NCBI GenBank assembly: GCA_944326425.1
Contig: CALVDX010000001.1
Location: forward strand, 62,001 to 126,000
Direction of reading: 5' to 3'
From: Candidatus Gastranaerophilales bacterium
GTDB taxonomy: Bacteria; Cyanobacteriota; Vampirovibrionia; Gastranaerophilales; Gastranaerophilaceae
Length of the DNA: 64,000 nucleotides
Shown here: piece after piece, positions 1-7,296 of the stretch
Layout of the letters: every line of letters starts with the position of its first letter
Numbering within the stretch: the stretch's first letter is position 1
Made by a program: the position numbers and the translations under genes
Notes under the pieces: generated by a model
Told to the model about the DNA's origin: nothing
Database searches by the model: none
What the model saw: the letters and a program-made list of their open reading frames with translations, nothing else

Positions 1-676
1 AACTGGAAAATGTTAAGTAATCTTTTTTCGGTATTTCAAAAATTCCGATTTTTTTGTTGTTTAAAATCATTTCATTAAATGCTGCGCTTATGTAATAAAT
101 TCCCTGAGTGTTTACGTTTTTTTCTATAACAGCAAAAGCCGCATTAACAAAGTCTTTACCGTGTTTAAAGTAGCAGCAGCCGGTAGAGGCAATATTAGAA
201 ATCGGTCTTTTTTCGCTTGTTTGTACTACAAAACCGTTTTCATCAAGAAGTACAGAGCTGTATTTCGGATGAATAGCGTTTATGGTGACTATTCCGCCGT
301 CAAGATTTCTTGTACGGAAGTCTTTGAGGGCAGGTGCAATATCAGTTTTAATTAACTGGCTTCCGTTCAGGATTAACAGTTCATCATCATTATTTATCTC
401 GTCGATTGCAAACAGTGCCGAACATACCGCCCCTTTGGTATCTCCGGCAACTTCTATAATCTTGCTTTGCGGACAGAGGATTTTTAAAGTATCTCCCAGA
501 TAATACTTATCCTGGTCCTCTTTTCTTATTATGCTGATAATATTGTCTCCGATATTTTTAAGAGATTCTATTGTTCTTTGAATAATAGGCTTGTTTTGAA
601 TTTCAATTAAATATTTAGGGTATCCTTTTTCACTAAAATCACTGGCGGAGCCTGCCATTAAAATGATTATATTCAT
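1..676 (-). CDS. sugar nucleotidyltransferase, capsule/LPS type (partial, C-terminus outside window)
   Basis: The gene reads from ATG at 676-674 and stays open to the window edge (about 225 residues seen). The start overlaps the HAD stop as TAATG behind a GGAGGGG ribosome site, so the two are translationally coupled. The N-terminus MNIIILMAGSASDFSEKGY, then YPKYLIEIQNKP, and later GDTKGAVCSALFAID and LLILNGSQ follow the plan of nucleotidyltransferases in polysaccharide loci, which make NDP-sugars. The usual GxGxRF phosphate loop reads GSASDF, and the Asp expected in the NxDQ-like motif is Ser. It may therefore be divergent or catalytically altered. The family is fairly clear; the substrate is unknown. 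Confidence 0.7.
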   Translation of the reverse strand, partial: MNIIILMAGSASDFSEKGYPKYLIEIQNKPIIQRTIESLKNIGDNIISIIRKEDQDKYYLGDTLKILCPQSKIIEVAGDTKGAVCSALFAIDEINNDDELLILNGSQLIKTDIAPALKDFRTRNLDGGIVTINAIHPKYSSVLLDENGFVVQTSEKRPISNIASTGCCYFKHGKDFVNAAFAVIEKNVNTQGIYYISAAFNEMILNNKKIGIFEIPKKDYLTFSS

Positions 677-1374
677 TATCTTACCCCTCCTGTACTAATT
701 CCTGCGGGAATTTTTATATCTTGCGGGGGATTATTTACGCTAAGCCCGCTTTCTTCTATTTCTTTAATTCTGTTTTTAATATTTTGATAAGTAACATCAT
801 TTACTGTTTCAACTTTTAAAAGGTGAGCGCCGCTCGCAAGAGCTGCTTTTACACCGTTAGGATTATCTTCAACAACGAGGCACTCCTCAGGGCGCAGCCC
901 GAATCTTTTTATTGCTGTTTGATAAATTTCGGGATCCGGTTTTGATTTTGTAACGTCCTGGTTAGAGAGTGTGAAATCCAGATATTTTTGTAAATCAGCT
1001 TTTTCCATCATCATGTCGATAGTTACTCTTACGGAGTTAGAAGCAAGAGCAAGTCCGTATCCTTCATTTTTAAGTTTGGAAAGTGCGTATTGATGGCAAA
1101 ACATTGGTTTACATTTCATATAAACGTGTTCCATTGTGTAAATTTGTTTCATGTGGTTTATAAATTTATGCAATCCCTGTGGCAGCCCCTTTTCAATAGA
1201 CAGCATTTCAAGTTTCTTTTTTGTCGGGAGTCCGTCAAAAGTTACAAGGTGGTCATATCTTGAAATTTTGAACCCGAATAATTCAAGAGCCTGGTTTAAT
1301 GCCTCGTAATGCCAGTCTTTTGCATCAATAAGGACACCGTCCATATCAAAAATTATTGCTTTAATCTTTGTCAT
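676..1374 (-). CDS. HAD-superfamily phosphatase (beta-phosphoglucomutase-like)
   Basis: This 232-residue protein has the HAD motif I FDMDGVLIDA, motif II region LASNS, the KPDPE loop and the motif IV acidic pair VVEDNPNG, with a helical cap between. A longer reading from 1395 is possible, but AAGGAG sits 7 nt before the ATG at 1374, which I take as the start. It overlaps the upstream GDPD-like gene by 14 bp and is coupled to the nucleotidyltransferase downstream. Members dephosphorylate or isomerise small sugar phosphates in the cytoplasm. In this operon a sugar-phosphate step in surface glycan synthesis is the natural inference. Confidence 0.8.
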   Translation of the reverse strand: MTKIKAIIFDMDGVLIDAKDWHYEALNQALELFGFKISRYDHLVTFDGLPTKKKLEMLSIEKGLPQGLHKFINHMKQIYTMEHVYMKCKPMFCHQYALSKLKNEGYGLALASNSVRVTIDMMMEKADLQKYLDFTLSNQDVTKSKPDPEIYQTAIKRFGLRPEECLVVEDNPNGVKAALASGAHLLKVETVNDVTYQNIKNRIKEIEESGLSVNNPPQDIKIPAGISTGGVR

Positions 1375-1990
1375 TAAAAAACTCCTTTGCTTCATTAGGA
1401 TAATCTGTACAGACCATTATTCCGGGGACATTTTTATATCTGCCCCAAATCTTTTTGTATTCCCGTTTATGTAAGTCCGGTGAAACAATGCAGACTTGTT
1501 TGTTTTTGTTGAGAATTTCAGTAATTTTTTCTTCACCGAACCAGTCAGAATTGAAAGAATCCAGCCAAACTCCTTTTGCTCTTTCAAACAGTACAGGATT
1601 AGGTACAATGTCACTAATGCCGGTAAATACATTCAGCCCGAGCTTGTGCTGATAAACCATTTCCGGAATACTCATGTCAAACGTGAAATAGTTTGTATGA
1701 TTGTATTTTTCAAGCAGCCTTTTTATTTCATCTGCAAGTCCGTCGGCTTTAATATTTAGTGCAATCGGCAGGTTTCTTCCATTGAGCAGCTTAAGAAGTT
1801 CTTCAAAAGTCATTTCCCCGCCCTCCGGCATATTATGGGAAATAACTATTTCGCCTGTTACATCTCTTAAGTCTGTTTCTATGCCGAATCCGTTGTCAAA
1901 AGCCCGCTCAAAAGCGCGCTTTGAATTCTTTTCCTCTTCCTTTATCCACCATCCTCTATGTGCCAGGATTGTTATTAAGTCGTTTCCCAT
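1361..1990 (-). CDS. GDPD/PI-PLC-like phosphodiesterase family protein
   Basis: This 209-residue TIM-barrel-type protein opens with LAHRGWW, then IETDLRD and VISHN. These correspond to the HRG, ExD and HxN motifs that hold the metal and catalytic histidines in glycerophosphodiester phosphodiesterases. It is shorter than typical GDPD enzymes (about 240-300 residues) and has no signal peptide, so it is probably cytoplasmic. It begins 3 nt after the stop of the recombinase-like gene, in one transcript with HAD and nucleotidyltransferase genes. Such small GDPD-like proteins occur in capsule loci; the substrate here is unknown. Confidence 0.7.
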   Translation of the reverse strand: MGNDLITILAHRGWWIKEEEKNSKRAFERAFDNGFGIETDLRDVTGEIVISHNMPEGGEMTFEELLKLLNGRNLPIALNIKADGLADEIKRLLEKYNHTNYFTFDMSIPEMVYQHKLGLNVFTGISDIVPNPVLFERAKGVWLDSFNSDWFGEEKITEILNKNKQVCIVSPDLHKREYKKIWGRYKNVPGIMVCTDYPNEAKEFFNDKD

Positions 1991-1992
1991 CT

Positions 1993-2523
1993 CTATAATA
2001 CTACCCCTTCTCTGCAGCGTAAATTCATGTTTTCCTGAACACCGATAAATTTTAAAGTTAAGTTAACTGTCGTCTGGTTAAATAACCATTGAAGATAAGA
2101 TAAATCTTTGTATTTCTGGTAATGGTGGTAAGCAAAAGTTTTCCGCCAGGATGCAACTGATATACAGTCCGGAAGTCCCAATTCTTTACAGATGTTTTTA
2201 AAAGTATTAAGTACACTCCAACGGTCTAGTTTTCCGCCGTTTTTTGATTGAAATAAAAGCTCGTTATTTTTTTTGTCTGCTGTAAATTGTAAAATTAATG
2301 TTTTAAGTTCATCATTGAGCGGCACGGATTTGTTTTTATCCAGAAGCAGGTATTCTTTATTTTTAACATCTCCGACTTTTAGATTGAGCAAATCATTAAG
2401 TGCCATCCCTGTATTTATGGCTAATGTAAACAGCAATAAATCTCTAATTAGCCCTTTTCTATTATATAAATCTTTTATTACATTTATATTTTGAATATCT
2501 GATATCGGAACGCTAGTCGTCAT
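1993..2523 (-). CDS. catalytically dead tyrosine-recombinase paralogue, first gene of glycan operon
   Basis: This 176-residue protein aligns end to end with the intact recombinase at 2783-3322 (shared RKTF-YHHY-KYKD block). It has lost the active site: Arg I is Ala41 (GMALND against GLRISD), the His of HxxR is Ala124 (only Arg127 remains), the second His is Gln150 (FNQTT against FNHST), and the nucleophilic Tyr is Phe159 (LKFIG against LRYIG). The frame is intact over 530 bp with a GAGG-type ribosome site. Retention therefore suggests a selected non-catalytic role such as DNA binding, recombination directionality or transcription control. It leads the operon and starts 46 bp from the left inverted repeat. 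Confidence 0.85.
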   Translation of the reverse strand: MTTSVPISDIQNINVIKDLYNRKGLIRDLLLFTLAINTGMALNDLLNLKVGDVKNKEYLLLDKNKSVPLNDELKTLILQFTADKKNNELLFQSKNGGKLDRWSVLNTFKNICKELGLPDCISVASWRKTFAYHHYQKYKDLSYLQWLFNQTTVNLTLKFIGVQENMNLRCREGVVL

Positions 2524-2568: not shown

Positions 2569-2598
2569 TTCAATACATTTTTAGTATTTTGTATTGAA
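2569..2598. repeat. left inverted repeat / recombinase crossover site (IRL)
   Basis: This 30-bp sequence is repeated perfectly in inverted orientation at 2747-2776. It is built as arm TTCAATACATT, 8-bp asymmetric core TTTAGTAT, and arm TTTGTATTGAA. The two arms are reverse complements at 10 of 11 positions. An 11-8-11 layout is the classic shape of a tyrosine-recombinase core site (compare lox and FRT). It lies 46 bp upstream of the recombinase-like first gene of the operon. Confidence 0.85.
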
Positions 2599-2746
2599 TA
2601 TTATCTTTTCTTAAGGTTAGCACGAACATATTATTATGAAAAGCTTTTTTAAGTATTGTTAAATATGTAATTATAAAAATTTTATATATTGGATTTTATT
2701 TGTTAATTTGAAGCTAATAAGCAAGTCTTGCCCGTACATTTACCCC
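2599..2746. other. putative invertible segment (148 bp promoter switch)
   Basis: This AT-rich, non-coding segment is bounded by the perfect 30-bp inverted repeats, with an intact tyrosine recombinase on one side and a minus-strand operon on the other. In the orientation shown it carries candidate minus-strand promoters pointing at the operon. Inversion would turn them toward the 3' end of the recombinase gene, antisense to it. This is the layout of phase-variable promoter switches; inversion itself is inferred, not observed. Confidence 0.75.
2633..2662 (-). promoter_or_regulatory. candidate promoter inside invertible segment
   Basis: On the minus strand TTAACA (2662-2657) is followed after 18 bp by CATAAT (2638-2633), each one mismatch from the sigma70 consensus. 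It points at the recombinase-like gene and glycan operon. A second candidate (TTAACA, 16 bp, TAAAAT) lies farther upstream in the same segment. The DNA is very AT-rich, so chance matches are likely and the exact promoter is uncertain. Confidence 0.4.
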
Positions 2747-2776
2747 TTCAATACAAAATACTAAAAATGTATTGAA
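2747..2776. repeat. right inverted repeat / recombinase crossover site (IRR)
   Basis: This is the exact reverse complement of 2569-2598, with arms and 8-bp core in opposite orientation. Recombination between the two would therefore invert, not delete, the DNA between them. It begins 6 bp beyond the stop codon of the active recombinase gene, so enzyme and site are tightly linked. Confidence 0.85.
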
Positions 2777-2782
2777 TTTGAA

Positions 2783-3322
2783 TTACAAAATAAAATTAGT
2801 GTAACATTTATCAATCATGTCTTGTTCTATTCCGATGTATCTTAGAGTAACTTCAGGTGTAGAATGATTAAATAATTTTTGAAGCATTGCTACGTCTTTA
2901 TATTTTTTATAGTGGTGGTAACCAAAAGTTTTTCGCATTGTATGTGTGCCGAATTTATCATCAAGTCCTGCTTCTTTGCAGGCCTCTTTTACGATGTAAT
3001 ATGCGGCGACTCTATCCAGTCTGTTATGGAATTTTGTCATAAATAATGGGGCGTCGGATTCTTTATCTTTTGTATAATCATCCAGCATGGGTCTCAGCTT
3101 TGAATTAATTATGAGCTTTTTAAATTTTCTGGTTTTCTTTTCTGTAATTTCAATATAGTTTTTCTTTTGTACATCTTTTACATCGAGGGCTAAGATGTCG
3201 GAAATCCTTAATCCGCAGTTTATGCCGATTGTAAAGAACAAAAGATTTCTTGAATTTTTACTAAGAATTTTTTCAACTTTTCTAAGGTCTTTAATTTTTC
3301 TTATTGGTTCTACTGTAGACAT
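2783..3322 (-). CDS. tyrosine recombinase, catalytic domain only (putative invertase)
   Basis: This 179-residue protein has the full active site: Arg39 in GLRISD, a lysine in the EKKTRK beta-hairpin (about 62-63), His127 and Arg130 in HTMR, His153 in NHST, and nucleophile Tyr162 in LRYIG. It lacks the N-terminal SAM-like core-binding domain of XerC/D (about 300 residues), so it is a minimal enzyme. AAAGGAT precedes the ATG. Its 3' end abuts the right 30-bp inverted repeat, and I infer that it flips the 148-bp segment. The dead paralogue on the other side of the switch arose from the same ancestor. Confidence 0.9.
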   Translation of the reverse strand: MSTVEPIRKIKDLRKVEKILSKNSRNLLFFTIGINCGLRISDILALDVKDVQKKNYIEITEKKTRKFKKLIINSKLRPMLDDYTKDKESDAPLFMTKFHNRLDRVAAYYIVKEACKEAGLDDKFGTHTMRKTFGYHHYKKYKDVAMLQKLFNHSTPEVTLRYIGIEQDMIDKCYTNFIL

Positions 3323-6960: not shown

Positions 6961-6975
6961 CTTCTATATTTCTTT

Positions 6976-6994
6976 AAACCGCGCTTGGAGGGAT
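6976..6994. repeat. 19-bp direct repeat of tRNA-Arg 3' end (copy 1)
   Basis: AAACCGCGCTTGGAGGGAT here is identical to 7219-7237, which is the acceptor/T-arm 3' end of the tRNA-Arg gene plus flanking bases. The copies are 243 bp apart in direct orientation. A tRNA 3'-end repeat is typical of an integrase attachment site or of a repeat element inserted next to a tRNA. Confidence 0.8.
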
Positions 6995-7183: not shown

Positions 7184-7214
7184 AAAAAAAAGAGATAACA
7201 AAGTTATCTCTTTT
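7184..7214 (-). terminator. terminator of tRNA-Arg
   Basis: A perfect 12-bp stem (7188-7199 with 7203-7214, AAA loop) is followed on the minus strand by a T run. It lies 9 bp after the tRNA 3' end. Confidence 0.85.
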
Positions 7215-7222
7215 CTAAAAAC

Positions 7223-7296
<74 letters not shown>

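Follow-up and report, generated by a model that had tools for sequence, protein, structure and literature searches.

A probable invertible promoter between an active tyrosine recombinase and an operon headed by its catalytically dead paralogue in the Gastranaerophilales

The 64,000-nucleotide stretch of DNA analysed here (the window) belongs to a 2.0-Mb Candidatus Gastranaerophilales MAG, from a gut relative of cyanobacteria. Near its start, two inverted repeats enclose a short segment, with the gene of a minimal tyrosine recombinase, P0001, on one side and an operon headed by a second recombinase-family protein, P0002, on the other (Table 1). An earlier note on this DNA had described the repeats as perfect over 30 bp around 148 bp of non-coding sequence, and so they are: the arms are complementary at every position, the pair occurs only here in the genome, and no ORF of at least 70 aa lies between them. 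The pair cannot be put down to chance, because at like spacing the window's next-longest perfect inverted repeat measures 12 bp and the longest perfect inverted repeat in 20 Markov shuffles of the window is 15 bp. Taken singly, either arm is nearly palindromic (CAATACA-N12-TGTATTG), the shape expected of a tyrosine-recombinase core site.

Table 1. Features of the switch locus and the adjoining operon, in window coordinates.
Feature	Position	Strand	Remarks
Sugar-nucleotide transferase	1-676	-	PF00483
HAD-family phosphatase	676-1395	-	PF13419
Glycerophosphodiester-phosphodiesterase-like protein (by eye: HRG, ExD motifs)	1361-1990	-	Without Pfam or NCBIfam match; 81% identical in next species
P0002, catalytically dead recombinase paralogue, 176 aa, first operon gene	1993-2523	-	PF00589, E 2.6e-13
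Inverted repeat (putative recombination site), operon side	2569-2598		30/30 complementary to 2747-2776
Putative invertible segment	2599-2746		148 bp, non-coding; counterparts seen inverted at related loci (five pairs)
Candidate promoter ATGTTCGTGCTAACCT, extended -10, hexamer 2614-2619	2614-2629	-	De novo motif score; faces operon (predicted ON)
Inverted repeat (putative recombination site), recombinase side	2747-2776		Near-palindromic
P0001, active minimal tyrosine recombinase, 179 aa, catalytic domain only	2783-3322	-	PF00589, E 5.7e-24; R39, H127, R130, H153, Y162

The P0001 ORF ends 6 bp from the nearer arm, and its active site is complete (RHRHY plus a Lys hairpin, EKKT); the earlier description of an intact recombinase at this distance stands, with all five tested catalytic residues present. 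Of 99 genomes sampled from the class, 95 have homologues under a loose threshold, one that also takes in distant XerC-like proteins, while close relatives come chiefly from the window's own family, with some in Halanaerobium and a few others. P0001 strongly matches the phage integrase family phrog_216. It scores under the NCBI cut-offs of two tyrosine-type DNA-invertase models, NF007371 (33.2 vs 222 bits) and NF007370 (23.6 vs 221 bits), which we take to represent invertases of the FimB/FimE kind, and because these scores are far below the curated cut-offs we did not file it with those DNA invertases. Close relatives outside Cyanobacteriota include four from Halanaerobium (Halanaerobiales; L150-L153), three of which have Asn in place of the first catalytic His; a scan of the surroundings of these four found no site pair. 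Several recombinase genes of the family (L036, L037, L039, L054, L107 and others) lie within ~130 bp of contig ends, as would be expected if the coexistence of both orientations interrupts assembly.

Comparison of the segment DNA with relatives gave no convincing homologous copy, so other loci of this recombinase family, gathered by searching around relatives of both P0001 and P0002, were used to compare orientation. This yielded 64 loci at which a site pair lies close to a recombinase-family gene, nearly all in the window's bacterial family and nearly always with the next gene on the same strand. Five pairs of these related loci hold the segment in opposite orientations; the window locus itself is known from one assembly and in one orientation. 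In four of the pairs (L122 vs L123/L124, L067 vs L143, L060 vs L065 and L225 vs L230), alignment shows collinear flanks and inversion of the inter-repeat segment alone, the inverted segments being 90-98% identical; the fifth, L088 vs L199, was read from sequence. Mismatches within the sites show that outer half-sites remain with the flanks and inner half-sites move with the segment, which in L088/L199 places the crossover within 6 bp, TAGCCA. Inversion at the related loci and the position of the crossover are thus supported by comparison of assembled genomes. Neither homologous recombination in the flanks nor misassembly would be expected to give this mark of half-site exchange repeatedly.

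The repeats are kept together with the recombinase across the family, and similar recombinases have similar sites: the similarity of adjacent active recombinases correlates with that of the sites (Mantel r 0.52, p 5e-4, 46 non-redundant loci), where, as for all Mantel tests reported here, shared ancestry is partly left in and relatedness among the sequences makes the p-value approximate. This covariation supports the neighbouring recombinase as the enzyme acting on the sites. Of the two outcomes that the earlier note named as refuting, an inverted form missing from all reads and related genomes and repeats not conserved with the recombinase, neither holds.

De novo discovery on the segment ends returned tTnTTTgTGnTAntAT, an extended -10 element, with an LLR of 252, where dinucleotide shuffles give 79-86. 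The motif is present in 48 of 55 segments, where 5.0 were expected from shuffling; the same segments served for training and testing of the matrix, with the shuffles as the control. In 46 of the 55 it lies at exactly one end, in 43 cases with 8-31 bp between it and the repeat, and it faces the operon (ON) in 21 and the recombinase (OFF) in 25, a division that would be expected of assemblies sampling both states. The motif and its two directions are therefore supported across the family, and the promoter in the segment appears to aim at the operon in one orientation only. At the window locus the motif scores 12.4 towards the operon against 5.2 the other way and lies 15 bp from the repeat, with a -10 hexamer, TAACCT, that is a weak match; the window was apparently assembled in the ON state. 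A generic E. coli sigma-70 matrix gave no overall excess on the segments, its position counts carry a modest signal at most, and a general upstream-motif count shows a weak strand bias. An Rfam search returned nothing near the locus except a tRNA.

Other repeats were seen in the window and in these genomes. A second pair in the same genome (G000 contig C6:93963-94121; L119:9963-10122), 21 bp and perfect, has arms 110 bp apart that contain the same CAATACAT half-site as the window arms around a different core. It is bordered by an ABC permease gene and a divergent gene, with no recombinase in the stretch read, and a scan of it for the promoter motif was negative; P0001 may flip it in trans. In the next species, a similar but imperfect pair (L233:1367-1526; G004 contig C21, near 111394), 83% identical over 30 bp and 100 bp apart, lies between two divergent genes that by eye encode GT8-like glycosyltransferases, and flipping could toggle between the two. 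Within the window, a 26-bp near-perfect direct repeat (6969-6994 and 7212-7237), one copy of which overlaps the end of a tRNA gene (7223-7296, minus strand), resembles an attachment-site duplication.

The earlier note had placed a glycan-type operon 46 bp from the other repeat. An operon does begin there, at a gap of 45 bp, but its first ORF is P0002, a dead recombinase paralogue that the note overlooked, and the glycan-type genes come after it. Leftwards from the switch, and read from locus L080 beyond the edge of the window, P0002 is followed by the glycerophosphodiester-phosphodiesterase-like protein, the HAD phosphatase, two nucleotidyltransferases, an acyltransferase, WavE-like proteins, a GT8 glycosyltransferase, a radical-SAM fusion and an ABC exporter. 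A tally of 89 genes lying downstream of this inverton and others is led by the glycosyltransferase, nucleotidyltransferase and sugar epimerase families, and because of these gene families the output of the switch is likely to be surface glycan synthesis. With an outward promoter motif at one segment end and surface-glycan genes downstream, the likeness to capsule-switching invertible promoters drawn in the earlier note was well founded. At two loci from different genera, L060 (4919-5633) and L090, the next gene encodes a small HTH (LuxR/sigma-like) protein, not a glycan enzyme or a dead recombinase.

P0002 is 36% identical to P0001 and has lost four of the five catalytic residues: its catalytic positions read A-A-R-Q-F, with R, H, H and Y replaced by A, A, Q and F, and its Lys hairpin is five residues shorter. 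Its AlphaFold2 model (pLDDT 88.6) has the fold of a tyrosine-recombinase catalytic domain, with XerA, Tn1549 Int, XerH and Cre as best PDB matches. Dead paralogues, with residues checked, occur in ~36 of 383 family genomes and ~15 genera, and all fall into a single clade (42 rows, support 100/100), four members of which retain the second His and the Tyr but have other catalytic residues lost. dN/dS in the clade is 0.04-0.11, for pairs unsaturated at silent sites, which indicates purifying selection; conservation of P0002 together with catalytic loss is supported by these comparisons. The members also share conserved motifs of their own (SVASWRKTF, LQWLFNQ, ENMNLRYREG). A dead-type gene comes directly after 26 of the 64 invertons, and by an automatic rule 15 of these 26 also have an active recombinase directly upstream; the window, where the sequence used for this count truncates the recombinase, is a further case. 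Similarity among the dead proteins tracks similarity of the sites (r 0.36, p 2e-4, 23 loci), also where both partners are present (r 0.26, p 0.012, 14 loci), and is uncorrelated with that of the active partners (r 0.00).

We consider the locus very likely to be a site-specific invertible promoter, a judgement that concerns the promoter and not the role of P0002, and we infer that the window segment inverts as its counterparts do. Weighing against the promoter are the weak -10 match in the window, the missing overall excess under the generic sigma-70 matrix and the second repeat pair without the motif. P0001 would bind the two near-palindromic repeats, and strand exchange inside a short central core would flip the 148-bp segment. 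In the ON orientation, as assembled, the promoter would be aimed at the operon, and the surface-glycan genes would be expressed with P0002 first; in the OFF orientation it would be aimed back into the recombinase gene, which it would read antisense. P0002 would thus be produced in the ON state only, and with DNA and partner binding retained it would join the active recombinase on the sites, where it would slow or bias inversion. The switch would thereby regulate itself.

Cre and Flp active-site mutants that lack catalysis still bind and pair (synapse) their sites (PMC4381057). These mutants do what is proposed for P0002, site binding and pairing without catalysis, but they were made in the laboratory, whereas P0002 is a natural paralogue. 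On the strength of the retained fold, the tracking of site similarity and the mutant precedent, the dead clade is suggested to recognise the switch still, while being unable to flip the segment and made only when the switch is ON. That the P0002 clade consists of natural dead-recombinase regulators of inversion, which occupy the sites with the active enzyme in the ON state and lock or bias the switch, is a tentative proposal, plausible but somewhat short of probable. Counting against it, the automatic search found no repeat pair for about one third of the dead paralogues, and many lack an active recombinase as neighbour, neither of which would follow from a strict partner model.

A lock or bias factor is our first choice for P0002, and a regulator of transcription our second. 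On that second reading the switch is real and P0002, exapted as a DNA- or RNA-binding protein, acts in regulation or antitermination of the operon, as proposed for UpxY/UpxZ, putative transcriptional regulators with which seven B. fragilis micro-capsule polysaccharide loci begin (PMC3090145). P0002 likewise heads its operon, and the motifs peculiar to the dead clade, the occurrence of its members without a neighbouring active recombinase and their lack of covariation with active partners would all suit such a role. However, the link between dead-paralogue similarity and recombination-site sequence and the recombinase fold kept in the P0002 model speak against it, and Pfam and NCBIfam show no relation of P0002 to a known transcription regulator. 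We regard this reading as possible but on the unlikely side.

It is very unlikely that the repeats are transcription terminators or regulator operators and that the segment at the window locus never flips. Near-palindromic arms could form a hairpin or bind a dimer, and the locus is known in one orientation, but related genomes hold counterpart segments in inverted form, with their half-sites exchanged, the promoter motif faces either way, and the sites covary with the recombinase. Still less credible, and largely refuted, is the view of P0002 as a functionless, decaying remnant of a duplicated recombinase: its catalytic residues are gone and the position of the first Arg is free to vary (A, N, D, K, T, G, M), yet full-length ORFs are kept in one clade across ~15 genera, at low dN/dS and in a regular position after invertons. 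Least probable of all is a small mobile element that is bounded by the repeats and either carries the recombinase or is served by it, as the short segment and the annotation of P0001 relatives as phage integrases (phrog_216) might suggest, since the repeats do not enclose the recombinase, two species share the layout and the next genes, and the segments invert in place.

The preferred reading, an invertible promoter that may be locked or biased by P0002, has partial counterparts elsewhere. In B. fragilis, the invertible promoter of the large capsule is served by a dedicated tyrosine recombinase, Tsr19 (PMC3090145), and the window locus likewise combines an invertible promoter, a dedicated tyrosine recombinase and surface polysaccharide genes, the likeness of Tsr19 and P0001 being one of locus arrangement rather than of compared sequences. 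The phylum differs, and the operon head here is a dead recombinase paralogue instead of UpxY/UpxZ. E. coli fimS is 314 bp long with 9-bp repeats and is acted on by FimB and FimE, both active and with different bias (PMC8777976). It too pairs small tyrosine recombinases with a promoter inside the invertible segment and switches a surface structure ON and OFF, whereas the locus described here has a 148-bp segment, 30-bp repeats, and one active and one dead protein. Akkermansia muciniphila is a further gut commensal with an invertible element adjoining a capsule locus, cps1, at which both orientations are present; its repeat motif, CGGATT..AATCCG, is different, and the words recombinase and integrase are absent from that paper (PMC13343947).

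The earlier note knew of no such switch described in this lineage, and a literature search with partial coverage agrees, returning no paper that joins the lineage to phase variation, invertible promoters or invertons. Among the titles and abstracts covered, again in part, no natural dead or paralogous tyrosine recombinase was found in a DNA inversion system, and we know of no described inversion system with a dead-recombinase regulator.

A family of largely uncultured gut bacteria within the cyanobacterial phylum thus appears to place surface-sugar operons under invertible promoters, a trait that would bear on escape from phages and on life in the host. Furthermore, the presence of a conserved dead paralogue among the genes under its control suggests that such a switch senses its own state and controls it. 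If P0002 does act as a lock, this would be phase variation with a built-in memory.
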